The notes below the pieces were generated by a model. It was not told the DNA's origin, ran no database searches, and saw only the letters and a list, made by a program, of their open reading frames with translations. The translations under genes and the position numbers were made by a program. From Volutella citrinella (taxonomy: Eukaryota; Ascomycota; Sordariomycetes; Hypocreales; Nectriaceae): 64,000 nt of DNA. Below are positions 42,682 to 54,251 of the stretch, one piece after another. Location of the stretch: NCBI GenBank assembly GCA_034401135.1, contig JAWZSP010000006.1, positions 310,001 to 374,000 on the forward strand, given 5' to 3'. Numbering within the stretch: position 1 is the stretch's first letter; each line of letters begins with the position of its first letter.

Positions 42682-44281
42682 GATTTGTCTAACAATGAAT
42701 GACAGGACGGGCTTAACGAATGACAGAGTTTGAAAGGAAAAAGAACGCACGGAGTGCTACGAGAATGGATCGGGCTTTGCTTTTAATTAAATGATTCTTC
42801 GAAGTTGCGTGGTCGACTGGCAGGTGAGAGTCTGGACCCAATAGAACCAATAGTCAGGAGAGGGGCGGCGCTATTGAGCCACAACGGTGACTAGCCCAGA
42901 GAGCTGGACCGCCAAAAGCAGCGAAGTCCAGGGGTTACGACCAGTACGTGGGACCACTAGAAGCCAATAGCGGATCAGACTAGCATGCCAAAAGAAGAAA
43001 AAAGTGACAGCTGCCAGCGCTATCGACTCACAGCGCAAAGAGGTCTGAGGGCTGCAGACGTTGTCTTATGTCCCATCGCAGATACTTGCTAATGAAAGTC
43101 GGCGCAATGACATGAAGAGATCAGAGATTGAAAAACTAGGTGTCAACAGGCGTCGCCAATTTCAGCGACACCAGCTTGAGGGTCAAGACCTTGTGCTTTT
43201 GCAGCGTTGCTCAGCTTTTACCTCTGAAGATGCGGGCTTGCTGGTAGAGCTGTGGGAAAAGCTCTGGTATAATCAGTTGATCTAACTATTCTTCATTGCA
43301 TTTGCGTCCGATATCGTCATCACCTACCCAGGATGGTGAGGCAACGACCCTGTGACGAGCACTACCTTCTCCTACCCTATGGCATGCGATGAATGTATCC
43401 ATGTTGGTGAATTCGATCTTGTCAGGCCAAGCTATGCGTAACCTATTATCTGTTAGGTCAAAGCTAAAGTGATTCTATCATACAGCGGTACAGAAGTAAC
43501 CAACAATTGCACCCACTGGCGTACTACTGGACGCGCCCTCGCATTGCAGGCTGGTTGGTTCGCAGGCCGCCATACTGCCTTTACCTACATCAATATTGGC
43601 TTCGCCACTGATGGTCCCCGCGGCATCCCAAGAGTATGGCTCCCATGATTCCCATCGTCCAGATTCTTTGTTTGATCGGTGCCTCTATGCAATCATCACC
43701 AGCTTTATCCTTGGTCTCTCTGAGTCGAGTGAGTCGTGACCTAATCCAGGCCAGGGATAAATTACATGTAGTTGTATCTGAATTGGAGGTCTTTCTGTCT
43801 ATATTTAATTCAGCAGCCAGTTCTGCTGCACAGCTTGTAAACTCCAAGTAATTGGATGGAATTACACCGAGTCCAGTGGTATTACAAGCTAGGGATATAG
43901 CCAGCATTAATCTCATCTATAATAATTCTTAGCACTGTGCCGACAATAGCAACGCGCACTAATCAAGTCATCACCGTCCCCGATCTCGGACCAGGCGACC
44001 TTATCTACCACACCAGGCCAGGAGTGGGACTGTGGGGAAGAATGAGCCCACCCTTACGGTCTGTGCTGTGCGTCCTGCAAAGATGTCGTTGCGGGGGCCC
44101 CATCCAAAGCCACTTTTCCCAAACTTGCCTCTGCATCCGTCATGAGCATCAGCCCTCATCTCATTTGTCCTTGCCGACCCCAACCTATCCCGGCCCAAAC
44201 TGAGTGGTGATTGAGAAGACCAAGAGAGTAGATGGAAGCTGTCATCACAAATCGACAGTTCCGGTCCCCCACGCCCGACCA
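42682..44281. other. Intergenic with one decayed fragment
   Basis: Divergent spacer between the PAN protein and a Zn2Cys6 regulator. Besides the fragment at 43502-43648, only short frames with no features are present. Confidence 0.4.
43502..43648 (+). pseudogene. Fragment of an unidentified secreted-protein-like frame
   Basis: A 48-codon stretch reads NNCTHWRTTGRALALQAGWF, then AGRHTAFTYINIGFATDG, and ends at a TGA. It has the composition of a conserved globular C-terminus but no start or upstream exons that can be joined. I do not recognise the family. Confidence 0.25.
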
Positions 44282-46324
44282 ATGCCGCCCAAAACGCCAC
44301 ATCGCAAATCCCGAAATGGGTGCCTTCGATGCAAGGCCCGCAGAGTAAGTCGTTCCGTTGGAGACCCCCACCCGTCAGTGGCCCATATTGAACTCCTTGC
44401 GCAGGTCAAGTGCGATCAGAGAGCGCCAAACTGCGCCCGCTGCGAGAGTCGCGGCCTCGTCTGTCCCGGCTATGTGCTCAATCTTCGATTCGCGCCCCAG
44501 AGCCAGCATCAACAGCTGCCGCCTGTCGCATCCACGGCCTCCAGCAGCCAGCAGGCAAGCTTGGCAACCAGCACCATTGTTGCTCAGGATCAGATGAGCG
44601 CCGGCGATCCTAGCCCCGCATCATTTATGACTCCAGACGCCTCGGGTTCGGCTCCGGCATGGAGCCCGCCCTCCCTCTCCCCAGCAGCGCAATTATCGTC
44701 TTATCCAAGTCAGTGGGGATTCCCAATGGATTTTGATCCCTTCTTTTCCGACCTCTCGGGCCAAGATCCTTTCTATGGTGCGCATCTTGGCCCCATCTTT
44801 GCGAATGTGCCAGTTCCAGCCGTGGCCAGCACTCCTTCTGCCGACTTCTCGTGGCAGACGATGATAGAGCAGCTGCCTAGCGAGGGTGATAGCCTTCGCG
44901 TTATTGATGTCGAAAGCTCCGACGGGGAACCAGCAGACACGCAACAGGCGTCAATACCTGCAACTGCTAGTCCAGGTGCAACCACAGATGAACTAGTGCA
45001 ATGGGATAACGCGGGCGCCGTCACACGAGTCTCTGAAATTGTCGACATCCCTTCCATGTTGTCCGACTACTTCTTCAAGGAAGTCATCACGCTGTACTCT
45101 GTATGGGACAGCCACGCCAACACTCTGAGAGTCATGACGGCATCCATGTGGCAGTCGTCGGGAGTCCTCTACCACACAATGCAGAGCATGGCAGCCGCGT
45201 GCCTGGCCAAGTCGTTCCCAGAGATGCGCGCCATCGCGGCCAAGGAGCGTCGCCTAGGCCTGCAACTTCTCAGCAGCAGCGACTACATCGATGAGGACAA
45301 GATGATTGGAGCGATCCTCCTCGGGCACACGTCCACCTGGGACAGCCCGCACGACCTGGCGCAGGAAAACTTTGACAATGCGCTCGTCAGGCTGCACGCC
45401 TGGGCTTCCCACACCAAGGACCGTTCACAGCTGGCCTTCTTTGGAGGCGCCTTTGACTACTGGGCCATGCTGCTCTCGTTTGTGTCCGAGACGAAGCTCG
45501 ACCGCAACCACCTCCGCCACTCCATCGCCAGAGCCGGTCCCGCCAACATCAAGGAGCCAACCGAACCGCACGCCTTCATCGGCACATCCGCCAACATCAT
45601 CCAGATCCTCACAGAAGTCGGCATGCTCGTCTTTGAGCACCGCAAGCGGGTGTCGGAGATTGACTTCTTGTCCGAGGACGAGCTCGACGCGTTCCGCAGG
45701 GCCATCCGCGACGCCCGCCAGCTGGAACGCCGCTTACTCGCGTTTACGCCCCTGGTGCCGACCAAGATCCGCGATACCGGGGACCAGTCGACGTCGCCGC
45801 TGCACTTTGTCAAGATTGACGAGGGCCTGCGCTGCACGGGCCTGCTGCAGCTCTATCGGGTGTTTCCAGACCTGCTCAAGGATCGATACCAGGTCTGGAA
45901 CCAGGACGCACTGCTCCAGCCTCAGCCAGCGTCCAAGGTCCCGTCCCGGCAGGAGATGAATGAGTGGCTGACGAGTCTGGCGCTGCATGTCCTGGGCATT
46001 GTGCGAGACATACCGTTTGAGTCGCGGACGCGCGCCATGCAGCCATTCATGCTTATTACCTTGTCGTGCGAGCTGCGTCTTCCGTCGAGTCTTGCGCAGG
46101 GTGGTCAAAATGACAGCGACGCGTGTAATCCCATCAAGATGGCGCAAGCTCGCGATTTTGTGCGGTCGCGAATGTCGGCTTACATGCACGTTTTGTCGGT
46201 CCGCAAGACGGAGAGGATGTTTGACCTCATTATGAATATTTGGTCGGCTCTTGACAAGGGCGAGAGTAAGGTCTACTGGTTGGACGTGGCGCAAAAATGC
46301 CGACTGAGCACAATCATGGGCTAG
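44282..46324 (+). CDS. Zn2Cys6 transcription factor (paralogue of the 56825-58833 gene)
   Basis: Two exons, 44282-44344 and 44405-46324, give 660 residues. The 60-bp intron (GTAAGT donor, GCGCAG acceptor) lies inside the zinc cluster and has no stop, so an unspliced frame is also open; splicing restores GCLRCKARRVKCDQRAPNCA then RCESRGLVC with C-x2-C-x6-C-x6-C-x2-C-x6-C spacing. A Pro/Ser/Gln-rich region follows, then a helical domain: YFFKEVITLYSVWDSHANTL, MWQSSGVLYHTMQSMAAACL, ILLGHTSTWDSPHDL and the C-terminal YWLDVAQKCRLSTIMG. The same landmarks occur in order in the gene at 56825-58833. Target genes are unknown; nearby candidates are the small secreted proteins and the PAN protein. Confidence 0.93.
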   Translation: MPPKTPHRKSRNGCLRCKARRVSRSVGDPHPSVAHIELLAQVKCDQRAPNCARCESRGLVCPGYVLNLRFAPQSQHQQLPPVASTASSSQQASLATSTIVAQDQMSAGDPSPASFMTPDASGSAPAWSPPSLSPAAQLSSYPSQWGFPMDFDPFFSDLSGQDPFYGAHLGPIFANVPVPAVASTPSADFSWQTMIEQLPSEGDSLRVIDVESSDGEPADTQQASIPATASPGATTDELVQWDNAGAVTRVSEIVDIPSMLSDYFFKEVITLYSVWDSHANTLRVMTASMWQSSGVLYHTMQSMAAACLAKSFPEMRAIAAKERRLGLQLLSSSDYIDEDKMIGAILLGHTSTWDSPHDLAQENFDNALVRLHAWASHTKDRSQLAFFGGAFDYWAMLLSFVSETKLDRNHLRHSIARAGPANIKEPTEPHAFIGTSANIIQILTEVGMLVFEHRKRVSEIDFLSEDELDAFRRAIRDARQLERRLLAFTPLVPTKIRDTGDQSTSPLHFVKIDEGLRCTGLLQLYRVFPDLLKDRYQVWNQDALLQPQPASKVPSRQEMNEWLTSLALHVLGIVRDIPFESRTRAMQPFMLITLSCELRLPSSLAQGGQNDSDACNPIKMAQARDFVRSRMSAYMHVLSVRKTERMFDLIMNIWSALDKGESKVYWLDVAQKCRLSTIMG

Positions 46325-46858: not shown

Positions 46859-47008
46859 TGGGCATGATATAGATTAAAAATAGCGCCTCTACCCTGTAAA
46901 CCCTGTTTTATTCAACCCACCGTGCGCGCACTTGGTGAGATCCTTGGCGGCGTGGGAATGCATACATACACAGACAATGGCATGGAATATCTCCGGTCTT
47001 TTTCAGCA

Positions 47009-47014
47009 TATAAA
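47009..47014 (+). promoter_or_regulatory. TATA box of the secreted protein gene
   Basis: TATAAA 93 bp upstream of the ATG at 47102, in the pyrimidine- and CA-rich context usual for strongly induced secreted-protein genes. Confidence 0.45.
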
Positions 47015-47101
47015 TCAGAGCGTGTCCTATTGACGGGGTCTTGTGTCCTATGCTCATCACCTCATCCATCAAACATCAACTTCTGCAATTGTCTATTCAC
47101 A

Positions 47102-47581
47102 ATGCAGTTCAACCTTGTTGCCCTCCTGGCCGTTGCCGCCGCTGGGCCCATTGCTGCCAACCCTGTTGCCCAGCCCGAGCCTGTCGACGCTCTTGAGGCC
47201 CCTGAAGTTGTCGAGCGTGCCGCGCCCTCCATCACTGTGTCAGCGCCATTGCCTTCACTTTCCCTCCCACCCCCTTTTCCGGCCCGACCGGATAACATTA
47301 CGGCCAAATGCACCAAAGTCGACAGCAACACGTGGGAGGTCACGAGCGAATGGATTGGCGAGACCGCTATTCTGCCCTTTTGCGAAAAGATGCTACGCAT
47401 GGTCTCCAGCTTCCATGGCTGCCCTAACGTGGCGGTTCACGAGTGCACAGTGAATCCGACTACTGGAAACCTATACTGGGGTCCGTATAAGCATGGTGGT
47501 GATTGCAACGGTGGGAAGATTCAGTCGGCCTGGTGGGAGACCACTGGAAACACTATTGGCGAGCTCCACTGCCCTTGGTAA
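47102..47581 (+). CDS. Small secreted cysteine-rich protein, candidate effector
   Basis: The start is the ATG at 47102, which begins a signal peptide (MQFNLVALLAVAAAGPIAAN); the frame is open upstream but the leader there is not coding-like. The 159-residue product has a Pro/Glu-rich pro-region ending VVERAAP, possibly cut by Kex2-like activity, a proline-rich linker and a globular domain with six cysteines (AKCTK, PFCEK, HGCPN, HECTV, GDCNG, LHCPW). WGPYKHGGDCNGGKIQSAWW and the terminal CPW are distinctive. Even cysteine number and small size fit an apoplastic effector or antimicrobial protein. No named family is recognised. Confidence 0.75.
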   Translation: MQFNLVALLAVAAAGPIAANPVAQPEPVDALEAPEVVERAAPSITVSAPLPSLSLPPPFPARPDNITAKCTKVDSNTWEVTSEWIGETAILPFCEKMLRMVSSFHGCPNVAVHECTVNPTTGNLYWGPYKHGGDCNGGKIQSAWWETTGNTIGELHCPW

Positions 47582-48652: not shown

Positions 48653-50359
48653 ATGCTGCTGACTCTCACCCTCATCAGTCTTCTCGCATCCTTTTCCACC
48701 GCAGCATACGTCCAGTTCGAGAACTGCTACCATGTAGGAGGGTCCGGCGACAGTGTGACTGGGGGTGTCCCGAAGTTGCTGCCCGAGTCCCTCCGCGCCG
48801 CCGCCAGCCGGTCCGACAACAGCACGCATCTGAGACTGAATATGACTGTCCTCGCCCCGGAATCCTTCACATACGACGCAGGATTCGTGGACAGCATCGC
48901 GGCGCGACTCTGGACGACCAACCTCGGGGGGATGCAGATCTACGACGGCCACATTGTCAACGTAACAACAAACGAACACTACCCAGTTCCTCCGCGACTC
49001 CGCCTTGAAATCACCGCGACTATTCTTCAACTCTCGTCTCTGGACACAGTCGAAACTAGAATCGAGCTTCTTGCGAAAAATTACGAGCTAATAGCCTGCA
49101 TGAGGGCTGCCTTGACTCCGGAAATCGGATCGGGAGAGCACGCCCTTGGCCTCTATATCCCAATCATCACTTGCTCCCTTGCACTCATTGTTGCCGTCTG
49201 GACCTCTCGACAACGAAGCCTGTCCAGCCGCACTCCTTCTTTGAATGGAGGGCAAGACGACCGTTACCACCTCGTTCGAACCGCCGACCTGTTCGCCTAT
49301 GTCCAGTTCGTCTTCTTCTCCGGCGCCCTCAGCTTGCAGTATCCGGGCTTTTTGCAACCCGTCATTGGCCTTAGCGGTTGGTCAATGCTGATGTTGCCGG
49401 CTGGGCCAGTCATTACCGATTCGCTTTACCGTGGCGTAGAAGATGGCATCTACGCTACAAACGGGACGCTCACTGGTGAAGCAGGGCTGGAACTCATCAC
49501 ACAAGTCACCGCCTCCCCCAACAAGTCGGAGTCGTGGATCAACATTGTCACTCTGGCCGCCTTCATTCTTGTTGCCATTTTCATCCTGATCCAGGTCAGC
49601 GATATGCTCGCATCAAATGTCTCAATCCCTCGCCCACAAAGCTCGACCTGGTCGTTCCGAAATATCTGGCCCAAAGTCTACAACCGCTTCTTATCCGTTA
49701 CTCGGATCTTCCTCAGCTACTTGTTGCTTCCAGTCACCACCTGGTCCATTTATCAAATTTCCGGCTCCTTTACCCTCAACATTCGAAATTCGAGCATGGC
49801 ATCCGTCGTTTTACTGATCGTATCCTTATCGCTGTGGGCCGTCTTTGCACGAAACAACTCACTTGACGCTAGCTACTTTATTGCACCGCGCTCCTTACAT
49901 GATTCGAACCGGAAAATATCTAGACAGCATTACTCCATCATAATTGCGGTCCTCACGGTGACCCGCGGCGTCGCCATCGGAGGGTTGCAGAGACAAACAT
50001 TGGCTCAGTTTGGCGTTCTTATGGCCTGCGAGATTGCTCACGTCTCCGTCGTCCTGTACTGGAGCGGATTTTCATCACGGACTTGGACCCCAGGCGCGGT
50101 TGCCATCTCCAGACTCGTCATCTTCTCACTCTGTGTTGGTTTTCTTCCAGGGACAGATCACATCTGCAAAATCTACCTTGGGTACATCTTTTTGGGCTTG
50201 CATCTTGGCGTGCTTGTCGGCTTATTCCTTCTACCAACTACTGCCGACCTGGTTCAGCTGGTCCTCACGAGCTTAGTGAAGTCCCCGACCCCAACGATGG
50301 CCAGAACACTTTCATCTGTAGGTCTCGCTCTAGGCGCGCATCGAGTGTCGACTAATTAA
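48653..50359 (+). CDS. TRP-like ion channel (FLC/Pkd2 type), probably N-terminal part of a TRP-PLC fusion
   Basis: Read alone this frame gives 568 residues. A signal peptide (MLLTLTLISLLASFSTAAYV) leads into a luminal ML-like region beginning VQFENCYHVGG, with four N-glycosylation-type sites, then a first membrane helix (about 165-185). A cytosolic or loop region and about eight more helices follow, in the pattern of fungal TRP-like (FLC/Pkd2) channels. Fungal FLC proteins act in calcium release, cell-wall stress and flavin/haem handling. The last 13 codons (50318-50359) overlap a likely intron. If that intron (50318-50370) is spliced, the channel continues in frame into the phospholipase C at 50422, giving one protein of 1167 residues (exons 48653-50317 and 50371-52209). 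I favour the fusion but two separate genes remain possible. Confidence 0.85.
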   Translation: MLLTLTLISLLASFSTAAYVQFENCYHVGGSGDSVTGGVPKLLPESLRAAASRSDNSTHLRLNMTVLAPESFTYDAGFVDSIAARLWTTNLGGMQIYDGHIVNVTTNEHYPVPPRLRLEITATILQLSSLDTVETRIELLAKNYELIACMRAALTPEIGSGEHALGLYIPIITCSLALIVAVWTSRQRSLSSRTPSLNGGQDDRYHLVRTADLFAYVQFVFFSGALSLQYPGFLQPVIGLSGWSMLMLPAGPVITDSLYRGVEDGIYATNGTLTGEAGLELITQVTASPNKSESWINIVTLAAFILVAIFILIQVSDMLASNVSIPRPQSSTWSFRNIWPKVYNRFLSVTRIFLSYLLLPVTTWSIYQISGSFTLNIRNSSMASVVLLIVSLSLWAVFARNNSLDASYFIAPRSLHDSNRKISRQHYSIIIAVLTVTRGVAIGGLQRQTLAQFGVLMACEIAHVSVVLYWSGFSSRTWTPGAVAISRLVIFSLCVGFLPGTDHICKIYLGYIFLGLHLGVLVGLFLLPTTADLVQLVLTSLVKSPTPTMARTLSSVGLALGAHRVSTN

Positions 50360-50370
50360 GTCATGTTTAG
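50318..50370 (+). other. Predicted 53-bp intron joining TRP channel and PLC frames
   Basis: Donor GTAGGT after codon TCT, branch-like GACTAATTAAG, acceptor TTTAG. It is phase 0 on both sides. After the acceptor, 17 sense codons (DTSFTSSTTGYSLKNLV) lead straight to the Met that starts the PLC frame. The size matches the other introns here (53-60 bp), and a GTAGGT donor is also used in the SesB-like and receptor genes. Confidence 0.65.
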
Positions 50371-50421
50371 GACACATCATTCACATCCTCTACAACCGGA
50401 TACTCTCTCAAGAACCTGGTT

Positions 50422-52209
50422 ATGCCGCCATTGCGAGTCGAGGACCTCCACCGGCAATATCTCGCTCGCCATATACTGAACGGAGAAGCTACTATCTTAA
50501 AGAACGGAGCGGAACAAGGCATCGGGCCTGATGAGTTCTCCGCCTTTATGCAGACCGTTCAGGGCGAACATTTAGAAACTGACACACCGGCTTGGTCTAA
50601 CCTCGTAGCTGAGTTGACAGATGACATACATAAAGCCGGCAGAGTTTCTGGCAAGGATGGAAGGCTTCCACTTGGAGATCTAGTCGATTTCTTGCTATCC
50701 GAGTCAAACTCGCCCATTTCCCCGAGAGTAGATATTGCTCTCGACCAACCGGTCAACCAGTACTTTATTTGCAGTTCCCACAACACGTACCTATTAGGTC
50801 GACAAGTGGTCGCACGATCGAAACTTCAAGGGTACAGCGCTGCCCTTCGAGATGGATGTCGTTGCGTCGAAATCGACTGCTGGGACGGCCGGGATGGCCA
50901 ACCAGTTGTGAAGCACGGATACGCGCTGACATCCTCGGTGAGCTTCCAGGATGTGGTCACCGAAATCGACAAGCATGCATTCTCCCAGTCAGAATTTCCC
51001 CTTTGGCTATCTCTCGAAGTTCACTGCAGTGCGCCACAACGGATGAGAATGGTCGAGATCATGAGGCAAACTTTTGGTGAGAAGCTCGTCACTGAACCCC
51101 TGGAAGGATCTTCACATACGCTTCCAACACCATCCCAGTTACGAAAGAAGATTTTGATCAAGGCAAAAACTTTGCACGCGCCGCTGAGTGAAAAAGCGCA
51201 CGAATCAAGAAACGATAGAATCCACAAACTCCAGCCCACGGCAGCATATCCGGCGCTTCCGTCACTCGAGGATGACCAGATCTTGATGCAACCAGGCGGG
51301 GATCAGTCAAGCGATGGTTGCAGCGTCTCTCAAGAGAGCTACGTTGATCATCAGACGAAAAGCCCAGATACACCTAGGCAGGGCGGTATGGCGCTGGAAA
51401 AACTTGCAGTATATGGCCCAGCCCGGAAACTCACTGCCAAGATCTCCACCGATAGCCCCAGGCCATACATCCATTCCCTTTCTGAATCCGGATTCAGAGC
51501 ACATTCAAAAGCAAAAAGCTTCCCGGAATCCATCGAAGCCCTCAACAAGCACCACATGATGCGCGTGTACCCTGACCCTACCCGCATTGACTCGTCCAAC
51601 TTCAACCCCCTTCCATACTGGAGGCACGGGGTGCAGATGGTGGCAATGAACTATCAGACTGCAGATGCCCATATGCAGCTGAACAGAGCCATGTTCTCGG
51701 GCGGTTCAGACGGCACTGGCTACGCATTGAAGCCAGCCTGTCTGCGTCAAGTTTCCATGCGTGAACCGGCACGGCTGGAGATGATACGATTGTCAGTCGA
51801 CGTGATTCTGGGCAAAAGTCTACAGTGGCCGCTGAGGCTCAGCGCCAATATCCAGACCTCTGTCTATATAGAACTGGAGATGCTTCTCGCAGACGGCGCC
51901 GGCCAAATGGCAGCCTCGCAACTACTTGCTCGGTCTGAGCCGGTCCTCATGACTGAGAATGATGTGCTTTTCAACCAGAGGCTGGACCTCTGTGCGGAGA
52001 CTCGGTATCCCAGCCTTGCCTTTGTGCGATGGTCAATAAGGATGACCTCTGACAGCCAGGGATCAGGTGGTTCCCTGACTCTAATGACATACGCAGCGAA
52101 ACTCCAGAACCTGAGGCGGGGTTACCGGCTTGTGCCCCTGCAATCGGGCTTCCAAACTAATGAGCAATGCGGGTTTTTATTTTGTAAGATTATACCCTCT
52201 CTAGATTAG
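50422..52209 (+). CDS. Phosphoinositide-specific phospholipase C (delta-like), probably fused to the upstream channel
   Basis: From its first Met this frame gives 595 residues. It has no PH domain; an EF-hand-like helical region (1-105) leads to the X box: ICSSHNTYL (His120, Asn121), DGCRCVEIDCWDG (Glu150, Asp152), VVKHGYALTSSVSF (His165) and WLSLEVHCS (Glu199). These match the catalytic and Ca2+-binding residues of PLC-delta. LRKKILIKAK supplies the phosphate-binding lysines. A variable linker follows, then the Y box HHMMRVYPDPTRIDSSNFNP, YWRHGVQMVAMNYQTAD and a C-terminal C2-like domain. The enzyme should cleave PIP2 to IP3 and diacylglycerol. Only 62 bp separate it from the channel frame, and splicing of 50318-50370 joins the two in frame. 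Confidence 0.95.
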   Translation: MPPLRVEDLHRQYLARHILNGEATILKNGAEQGIGPDEFSAFMQTVQGEHLETDTPAWSNLVAELTDDIHKAGRVSGKDGRLPLGDLVDFLLSESNSPISPRVDIALDQPVNQYFICSSHNTYLLGRQVVARSKLQGYSAALRDGCRCVEIDCWDGRDGQPVVKHGYALTSSVSFQDVVTEIDKHAFSQSEFPLWLSLEVHCSAPQRMRMVEIMRQTFGEKLVTEPLEGSSHTLPTPSQLRKKILIKAKTLHAPLSEKAHESRNDRIHKLQPTAAYPALPSLEDDQILMQPGGDQSSDGCSVSQESYVDHQTKSPDTPRQGGMALEKLAVYGPARKLTAKISTDSPRPYIHSLSESGFRAHSKAKSFPESIEALNKHHMMRVYPDPTRIDSSNFNPLPYWRHGVQMVAMNYQTADAHMQLNRAMFSGGSDGTGYALKPACLRQVSMREPARLEMIRLSVDVILGKSLQWPLRLSANIQTSVYIELEMLLADGAGQMAASQLLARSEPVLMTENDVLFNQRLDLCAETRYPSLAFVRWSIRMTSDSQGSGGSLTLMTYAAKLQNLRRGYRLVPLQSGFQTNEQCGFLFCKIIPSLD

Positions 52210-52724
52210 TTAAATCGTTGAACATGCGCTTGTTATCCTTCATGCCAATAGTCCAATCTAGTTGCATACGCCAGCCCAGGTCATGGCCCTCTGAAGCTCT
52301 CGTTCCGAGGCTCAGGTCATCTTTGTACCGAGGAGCCGATGTCCCCCGGGGTCATACAAATGGACATTTACAAGAGCTATTTGCTTTTTATCGGGGCTTT
52401 TCATGGTCTTAGGATCATGAGGACGCCTACGTAGTCGGAGAGGCAATGTCCCACTACTAGTGCCGTGTGGCGTCCTGGTTTTTCCCTTTTTGATTTAGTC
52501 CGACCTCGTCTTGATTATCCGAAACGGGATTAGGAGCATTCATGGTTACGAGTCAGCAGCACTTCTTGCCCTTCAGGGTAATAAGACTAATCGACAGCGA
52601 AACTCTTCACGGCGCGTCTCGTCGGAATACCCAAATCGAATTGTGTTATATATTGCACACGTTACCATTTTCAAATGCGCAGTGTCACGATTCATTTCTT
52701 CCAGTAATTCCCCAATACGACCAA
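52210..52724. other. Intergenic, no gene recognised
   Basis: 3' flank of the PLC and promoter of the permease. The frame upstream of 52725 is open to 52542 but the extension lacks transporter features. Confidence 0.5.
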
Positions 52725-54251
52725 ATGGCTTCTACGGTCAACAAGTCTAACCACCAAGTCCCGGACGAGAAGGGCGTCGGCAAGATGGAAGCCGATGACA
52801 TTGAGGTCGTGGAAATGGGCTACACTGCAGAGATACCTCGCGAATTCACACTCCTCTCCGCCTTTGCTCTCTCTTTTACAATCTCGGGCGCCGCAGTCGC
52901 AATCATTGTCGCTCTTCCTACCGGAATCGGCTCTGGTGGGCAAGCTGTTGTTGTCTATGGCCAACTCATCATCTATGCCGCCTCGTTGTGCGTCGCCTTC
53001 AGTCTGTCCGAGCTGGCCTCTGCGTTCCCAAATGCTGGTGGCCAGTACTACTGGATAGCACGCCTTGCACCCAGTTCCTGCAGAAGCATCCTCACCTTTG
53101 TCGTCGGCATTTGCAGCTGGGTGTCTGCCATGTTTGCTACTGCTTCCGTGTTGGTCGCCGCTGCATCTGCCATCAGCGCACTGGCTGCAGTTCGTGGTGG
53201 CGCGGAACTGTCGGCCGGTGTCCAGTTCGCTATTTACCAAGGCTTCAACCTTCTCGCAGCCTTGTTCAACGTATACCACAAATCGATTCCCTTCTTCAAC
53301 AGGGTCTGGTTCACTGTGTATATTTGCGTCCTGAGTGTTGTCCTTATTGGTTGCCTGGTACGCTCGCCCACCAAGCAATCTGCCAAGTTCGTCTTCCAGG
53401 GCTTCACCAACGCAACAGGCTGGAACGACGGGATTGCCTTCATTCTGGGCCTTGTTGCAGTGAATTGGGGCTTCTCTGCACTAGACGCAGTTTGTCACTT
53501 GGCCGAAGAGATCCCCGACCCTAGGAGGAACATACCCAAGGCATTGATCAGCAATGTTGTTGTTGGAATTGTTCTTACATGGCCTATCGGCCTCATCCTG
53601 TTGCTCTGCATGCAAGACATCGACGCCCTCGTCAGCTCAGGTGCCTCGACCATTGTGCCATACATTCTCCAGGTTTGGTCAGGCAATACGGCGGCAGCCA
53701 TTGGAATTCAGTCAGGCATCATCACCGGCCTCCTCGGCGCCGCGGCGGGCTGTCAGACTTGGCAATCTCGGCTGGCCTGGTCCGTCGCACGAGACGACGG
53801 CTTTCCATTCTCCAAGCACTTGAAGAAAATTGCGCCAGAGCCTTACAACGTGCCGCTTTGGGCTCATATCTGGTCAACGGCCTGGGTCGCTGTCCTTGGC
53901 TGCGTATACCTGGGATCAACCGCTGCCTTTCGTTCCTTCACTGGCGGATCAGTCATGATACAATACAGTACCTACTCCGTTGCCATCGTACTGATGCTCA
54001 TTAAGGGTCGGGACAATATCCCGAGAGGGCCATTTTGGCTTGGAAAATTTGGCCTCGTCTGCAATATTGGAACACTGATTTGGACCGTCTTTACGACCGT
54101 CTTTTACTGTTTCCCACCCTACTTGCCGGTTGAAAGTACGACTATGAATTATGTTTCAGCCGTGTTTGTTGGGCTGCTTATTGTGTTCACGATGTACTAC
54201 GCCTTTGTCGCAAAGAAGTCATTTCGAGGACCACCTCTCGTGGCCGACTAA
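52725..54251 (+). CDS. APC-family permease, choline/GABA type
   Basis: Start ATG at 52725 (CAAATGG context); 508 residues, one exon. A short acidic cytosolic tail leads to YTAEIPREFTLLSAFALSFT, then ISGAAVAIIVALPTGIGSGG, typical of the fungal choline/GABA (Hnm1/Uga4-like) permeases. Further landmarks: ELASAFPNAGGQYYWIARLA, the loop FVFQGFTNATGWNDGIAFIL, CHLAEEIPDPRRNIPKA, and QSRLAWSVARDDGFPFSKHL after helix 8. Twelve helices are expected. It likely imports choline, GABA or another quaternary/amino compound across the plasma membrane. A DAO-type oxidoreductase of the dimethylglycine/sarcosine class lies next in the same direction. Confidence 0.93.
   Translation: MASTVNKSNHQVPDEKGVGKMEADDIEVVEMGYTAEIPREFTLLSAFALSFTISGAAVAIIVALPTGIGSGGQAVVVYGQLIIYAASLCVAFSLSELASAFPNAGGQYYWIARLAPSSCRSILTFVVGICSWVSAMFATASVLVAAASAISALAAVRGGAELSAGVQFAIYQGFNLLAALFNVYHKSIPFFNRVWFTVYICVLSVVLIGCLVRSPTKQSAKFVFQGFTNATGWNDGIAFILGLVAVNWGFSALDAVCHLAEEIPDPRRNIPKALISNVVVGIVLTWPIGLILLLCMQDIDALVSSGASTIVPYILQVWSGNTAAAIGIQSGIITGLLGAAAGCQTWQSRLAWSVARDDGFPFSKHLKKIAPEPYNVPLWAHIWSTAWVAVLGCVYLGSTAAFRSFTGGSVMIQYSTYSVAIVLMLIKGRDNIPRGPFWLGKFGLVCNIGTLIWTVFTTVFYCFPPYLPVESTTMNYVSAVFVGLLIVFTMYYAFVAKKSFRGPPLVAD

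Follow-up and report, generated by a model that had tools for sequence, protein, structure and literature searches.

A probable natural fusion of a TRP-like membrane protein with a delta-type phospholipase C in Volutella citrinella and its Fusarium relatives

A 64,000-nucleotide stretch of the genome of the ascomycete Volutella citrinella (GenBank assembly GCA_034401135.1, contig JAWZSP010000006.1, positions 310,001 to 374,000 of the forward strand; hereafter the window) contains a gene that, judged from its sequence and those of its homologues, very probably encodes a natural fusion of a TRP-like membrane protein with a phospholipase C (PLC), an arrangement common to Fusarium relatives. This reading, which upholds the proposal made in a preliminary description of the locus, is supported because the two-half arrangement is conserved in Fusarium relatives, because a matching linker intron can be deduced in a second lineage, and because the trees of the two halves are concordant. 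The locus very probably gives rise to one polypeptide, and its product is predicted with good confidence to be a membrane-tethered, catalytically competent fusion protein.

Gene structure and conservation of the fusion

Recomputation reproduced the gene structure given in the preliminary description, namely its coordinates, a gap of 62 bp between the TRP-like and PLC frames, a 53-bp phase-0 GT-AG intron and one open frame. The first exon supplies 555 codons of the TRP-like frame, the intron has GTAGGT...GACTAATTAAGTCATGTTTAG ends, and the second exon encodes 612 amino acids followed by a stop; joined at the predicted splice, they translate into a single frame of 1167 residues with no internal stop (Table 1). 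Left unspliced, the TRP-like frame continues to a stop codon whose last base is 50359, and a Met of the PLC frame lies at 50422. The nearest PLC-frame stops upstream of that Met, at 50353 and 50368, are both intronic, as had been stated for the in-frame stop preceding it. Within 50200-50421, six GT-AG pairs spaced by 40-120 nt carry a CTRAY branch, and four of them join the frames free of stops; these four use one common acceptor, and a strict donor occurs in just one, 50318-50370. When the branch requirement was dropped, six GT-AG pairs joined the frames. Of 1000 shuffles of the same interval, 160 contained a joining pair with a branch and 11 contained one that also had a strict donor, figures that serve as a rough guide, as the simple base shuffle kept composition only and did not demand the upstream open frame. 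Because shuffled sequences also give such frame-joining pairs, the intron signals taken alone are suggestive of one joined frame, not proof of it; the stronger evidence is conservation, as found in at least 40 two-half homologues and in the protein tails described below.

A whole-length protein search, in which 8000 candidates were scored, yielded 144 proteins at an E value of 0.001 or better. Among the best 120 of these, which were examined, at least 40 (P0001-P0040) contain both halves, as judged by BLASTP with the TRP half of the window, to which P0041-P0120 gave no match. Thirty-six of the 40 fusions bear the name Fusarium or Neocosmospora, covering 29 named species plus four 'sp.' strains, and the other four (P0010, P0013, P0014 and P0017) are proteins of the Joint Genome Institute (JGI). 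The preliminary description had suggested looking among fungal proteins for a PF06011 domain followed by the PLC X and Y domains, and this check was positive: the precomputed Pfam column lists all three domains for 28 of the 40 fusions, and 37 span the TRP core, X and Y in a joint alignment under thresholds that we set ourselves. The remaining three, P0037, P0039 and P0040, fall below the coverage thresholds, perhaps owing to unmodelled exons. A profile search with alignment A1 for fusions beyond Fusarium scored 7993 candidates and returned 29 proteins, none of them new, a result that says little on absence elsewhere, as it listed just 14 of the 40 known fusions.

Additional domains occur in a few of these protein models. 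P0007 (1628 aa) and P0039 (1567 aa), both from F. nematophilum, contain a HET domain, N-terminal in P0007, which may represent either a further fusion or an annotation merger of neighbouring genes. P0025 (1576 aa, 24 member sequences), from F. graminearum, has a Ras-family GTPase domain past the PLC, probably a merged neighbour.

A search with the TRP half only retrieved P0121 (595 aa), apparently an intron-blind prediction, and P0122 (569 aa). Up to ...EKTAP, both share 85-93% identity with the TRP half of P0005 and of P0006, which we take to belong to the Fusarium solani complex, and they diverge after it. Both tails open with V-S-I; GTRAGTAT would specify these residues, as could different codons. 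The P0121 tail fits the PLC-side exon of P0009 in another frame over 28 consecutive compatible codons (maximum of 8 in 100 shuffles), and the run begins at the residue following AP, exactly where P0121 diverges. Its runs with P0003, P0005 and P0006 extend over 20, 18 and 23 codons vs shuffle maxima of 10, 8 and 8, the last of the three beginning inside the exon. P0121 implies a gap of 50 nt between the TRP and PLC exons, the last bases of which can be AG, and P0122, weakly, one of 49 nt; the intron place derived from P0121 is one alignment column off the window intron. A phase-0 linker intron is thus probably shared by a second lineage. When viral_contigs and genome_contigs were scanned with P0012 for Fusarium junction DNA, no relative turned up, and the intron was therefore deduced from protein read-through. 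The four JGI fusions run across the junction unbroken, which would mean a lineage without the linker intron if, as we assume, these proteins come from an intron-blind caller. The linker is longer in P0010-P0014, P0019, P0020, P0026 and P0029 than in P0003-P0006 and the window, and could hold a former intron.

Evolutionary origin

Quick maximum-likelihood trees were built with 14 of the 40 fusions and the window. The TRP-half tree comprises 17 fused-labelled rows (including the window, P0121 and P0122) and 17 free-standing proteins, and the PLC-half tree 15 fused rows, 20 canonical PLCs and the three other host PLCs found. Fused rows lie on one side of a branch in both trees, with Shimodaira-Hasegawa-like approximate likelihood ratio test (SH-aLRT) support of 99 for the TRP half and 100 for the PLC half. 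Each tree makes the window the sister of the remaining fused rows, whose grouping has support of 96 and 89, and the two trees split these rows alike, setting the P0007, P0001/P0002 and P0003/P0005/P0006 types (82 and 89) apart from the rest (100 and 100). The fused PLC groups with the PLC1 family rather than with the other three host enzymes. Because the trees of both halves give one fused clade, one origin is favoured, and a single fusion event in a nectriaceous ancestor would be the simplest reading.

Horizontal transfer between the host and Fusarium was considered and rejected, with common descent being the simpler account because the window lies outside the Fusarium rows used in both halves and the host PLC1 falls within Nectriaceae. 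Identity between the host PLC1 and its Fusarium counterparts reaches 75%; a tree of 28 PLC1 proteins puts the host enzyme in a group of 11 rows (support 95) that includes Fusarium, F. nematophilum and Ilyonectria, but not within the core Fusarium clade of eight rows.

Domain architecture and predicted function

The PLC half has the build of a eukaryotic delta-type enzyme. The earlier statement that its catalytic residues are all present holds for all eleven residues checked, which, in what we presume to be the PLC-delta1 numbering, are equivalent to H311, N312, E341, D343, H356, E390, K438 and K440 in the X domain and S522, R549 and Y551 in the Y domain, the latter three being conserved in every one of the 40 fusions listed. 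The half could also be aligned to PLC-gamma2. An EF-hand region and a C2 domain are present around X-Y, the C2 limits being taken from the model of P0001; Pfam detected no C2 in the window PLC half. Residues 581-1155 of that model align to PLC-delta1 from after the PH domain, with its limits as we presume them, through C2, and the modelled homologue corresponds to a PLC-delta core of EF part, X, Y and C2. Pfam gave no PH match in the window PLC or in the host PLC1. Delta-type PLCs are activated by Ca2+ and cut phosphatidylinositol 4,5-bisphosphate (PIP2). The PLC half is likely to be catalytically active.

In the other half, Pfam assigns residues 210-519 to the TRP family (PF06011; E 2.3e-8, 33.7 bits vs a cut-off of 28.5), and the name 'TRP' rests on the name of that family. 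The N-terminus is hydrophobic, and 10 of 12 Fusarium-type fusions begin at the same place in the alignment as the window protein. An AlphaFold2 (AF2) model, hydropathy and the K+R content of the loops together predict a signal peptide, an ML-like domain and nine membrane helices, with an N-out, C-in topology that would put the PLC in the cytosol. No PDB chain was matched by the TRP half in a profile search, and structure comparisons for it were too weak to use.

According to this architecture, the two-exon gene would encode a membrane-tethered phosphoinositide PLC, in which a signal peptide and an ML-like domain outside the cytosol precede about nine helices of the PF06011 family, and a cytosolic linker, interrupted by the intron in the gene, connects to a PLC-delta-type core without a detected PH domain. 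The TRP-like half may stand in for PH as the anchor and set the enzyme beside its substrate. A stimulus at the ML/membrane half, or Ca2+ let in there, could activate the Ca2+-dependent PLC, which would cut nearby PIP2 into inositol trisphosphate (IP3) and diacylglycerol (DAG), and the local lipid change may act back on the membrane half. Both PIP2 and DAG are lipids to which TRP channels are responsive. Mutual coupling of the two halves is a tentative idea that we would sooner doubt than accept. The fuller proposal, a channel-enzyme with a single origin in Nectriaceae that operates as a self-coupled switch, its own Ca2+/lipid input driving the tethered PLC with PIP2 feedback, is possible and no firmer.

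A strong contender, which we place a little short of even, is that the fusion is real and its TRP-like half is an anchor or lipid sensor, not a channel, giving a constitutively membrane-bound PLC. The predicted build, an ML-like domain with about nine helices, is unlike the six-helix build of animal TRPs, the absence of a matching PDB chain points the same way, and the alignment of the P0001 model to PLC-delta1 from after PH only fits a swap of anchors. On the other side, 28 columns of the TRP half are invariant across 49 aligned rows, fused and free-standing, seemingly more than a mere anchor needs, and, according to the accessible parts of PMC8618638, loss of either of two Schizosaccharomyces pombe relatives upsets Ca2+ balance. 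As Aspergillus nidulans TrpR is located in the Golgi (same source, accessible parts), the fusion could act at one of several membranes.

Alternative gene models and points against the fusion

It is very unlikely that separate TRP-like and PLC genes, the first ending at 50359 and the second starting at 50422, lie side by side at the locus and were merged by gene prediction alone. Each half has its own open frame and a possible Met, and fungal gene models can merge neighbours, as the C-terminal Ras domain of P0025 and the N-terminal HET domain of P0007 may show. However, the frames are a mere 62 bp apart, the PLC Met of the window is conserved in none of 34 fusions, and both halves recur together in the 40 or more homologues, which come from differing sources including the four JGI proteins. 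Moreover, the TRP and PLC halves have one common history in the trees, and a shifted-frame PLC exon follows the TRP exon after 50 nt in P0121 and, weakly, after 49 nt in P0122.

Several points weigh against the fusion as interpreted here. Two read-through tails carry the case for the shared intron, and that of P0122 is no better than shuffles, with runs of 8, 8, 8 and 5 codons vs shuffle maxima of 8, 8, 8 and 9, the last pair being for the P0006 exon. Twelve of the 40 fusions have no TRP or X call in the precomputed Pfam column, although their TRP half still matches that of the window by BLASTP. The Fusarium proteins are database models, among which P0007, P0025, P0037, P0039 and P0040 look over-merged or incomplete, and the TRP score of P0007 (26.7) is below the cut-off of 28.5. 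The window row is long-branched in both trees and is among the long branches that the program flags as unsure. Both structure models are middling, with a predicted local distance difference test (pLDDT) score of 68 and a predicted template modelling (pTM) score of 0.66 for the TRP half, and 66 and 0.50 for the full-length protein. GTAGGT is not the commonest donor form in fungi, and ion conduction by the TRP half is an even call. The long branch would also suit a decaying host copy in which the 53-bp stretch is a frame-breaking lesion resembling an intron, but this is scarcely credible, as eleven of eleven checked catalytic residues are kept, the 1167 codons are otherwise open, splice signals are present, and an intron at a matching position is deduced in another lineage.

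Relation to known systems

The closest known proteins are the Fusarium/Neocosmospora proteins with TRP, PI-PLC-X and PI-PLC-Y domains (e.g., P0001-P0006), which have the same domain order as the window, 35-46% identity to it over the 40 rows, and conserved catalytic residues where these are present; the window differs in that its host lies outside core Fusarium. Their entries are labelled just PLC, phosphodiesterase, hypothetical or unnamed product. Canonical fungal PLC1, represented in the host by L002 (G000:C2:2347505-2349376), has a PLC core homologous to the fused half, with a long N-terminal part lacking a Pfam TRP match where the fusion has its TRP-like half. The free-standing PF06011 proteins P0123-P0137 are homologous to the TRP half (30-35% identity), belong to the same Pfam family and are listed in the precomputed Pfam column without a PLC domain. 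The host assembly (45.1 Mb, 26 contigs), searched for further copies, has at least two other TRP-like stretches, L010 (G000:C3:4697213-4698880; 31% identical), a homologue of the TRP half, and L011 (G000:C5:2169739-2170953; 30%).

Animal TRPM7 and TRPM6, with a kinase, and TRPM2, with a NUDT9-like domain, are channel-type proteins bearing a C-terminal enzyme or enzyme-like domain; compared by description, partly from general knowledge and from the portions of sources available, they belong to another membrane family and carry other enzymes. Channel-enzymes are therefore known as a kind, and the pairing of a TRP-like protein with a PLC differs from them in both parts. In Neurospora crassa, PLC-2 and a TRP-like conductance have been proposed to act together as separate proteins, PLC-2 being needed for a Ca2+ response ascribed to a TRP-like channel of unassigned gene (PMC4150065, available portions). 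These data suggest that PLC and TRP-like functions are linked in fungi, without showing that the fusion links them. Fungal genomes have no IP3 receptor genes, although PLC and IP3 seem to be of importance in fungi (PMC3410928, available portions).

No description of a TRP-PLC fusion was found in the top-ranked matches of the open-licence literature, a corpus in which subscription papers are mostly not included, and the available portions of PMC4928787, PMC6997533, PMC3410928 and PMC8618638, searched for phospholipase and PLC, contain nothing on a fusion: PMC4928787 and PMC8618638 had no occurrence, PMC6997533 had one, in a reference, and PMC3410928 had one, in its comment on IP3. As far as seen, the fusion sequences and their domain order are already in databases, apparently undiscussed. 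This gene bears on how PLC and TRP-type Ca2+ entry connect in fungi: by its architecture, a predicted single chain, conserved across Fusarium relatives, links phosphoinositide signalling with a TRP-like protein, so that the connection can be put to a direct test.

Features of the locus and neighbouring genes

Table 1. Features of the candidate fusion gene, in window coordinates
Feature	Coordinates	Strand	Basis
Exon 1, TRP-like half, residues 1-555 of the fusion	48653..50317	+	Open frame; Pfam TRP PF06011; BLASTP to at least 40 Fusarium-type fusions
Probable signal peptide, residues 1-18	48653..48706	+	Hydrophobic N-terminus; start alignment
Predicted ML-like beta-sandwich domain, residues 19-155, predicted lumenal/extracellular	48707..49117	+	
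Membrane region, residues 160-543, nine predicted long helices, predicted N-out C-in	49130..50281	+	AF2 helices; hydropathy; loop K+R counts
Phase-0 linker intron, 53 bp, GTAGGT donor, CTAAT branch, TTTAG acceptor	50318..50370	+	Splice signals; intron deduced from P0121 (weakly P0122)
Exon 2, linker and PLC half	50371..52209	+	Open frame; Pfam; homology to Fusarium fusions
PI-PLC-X domain	50743..51168	+	Pfam E 5.3e-58; catalytic residues conserved
PI-PLC-Y domain	51397..51741	+	Pfam E 7.3e-34; three residues conserved in 40/40
C2 domain, approximate limits	51763..52206	+	Carried over from P0001 model

Upstream of the fusion gene, a small cysteine-containing protein is encoded at 46922-47581 (+), for which Pfam gave no match at E 0.01 and which is possibly secreted, given a signal-like stretch after an internal Met. 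The neighbouring genes on the same strand encode a Zn2Cys6-type transcription factor (44204-46324; PF11951, PF00172) and an amino acid permease (52542-54251; PF13520).

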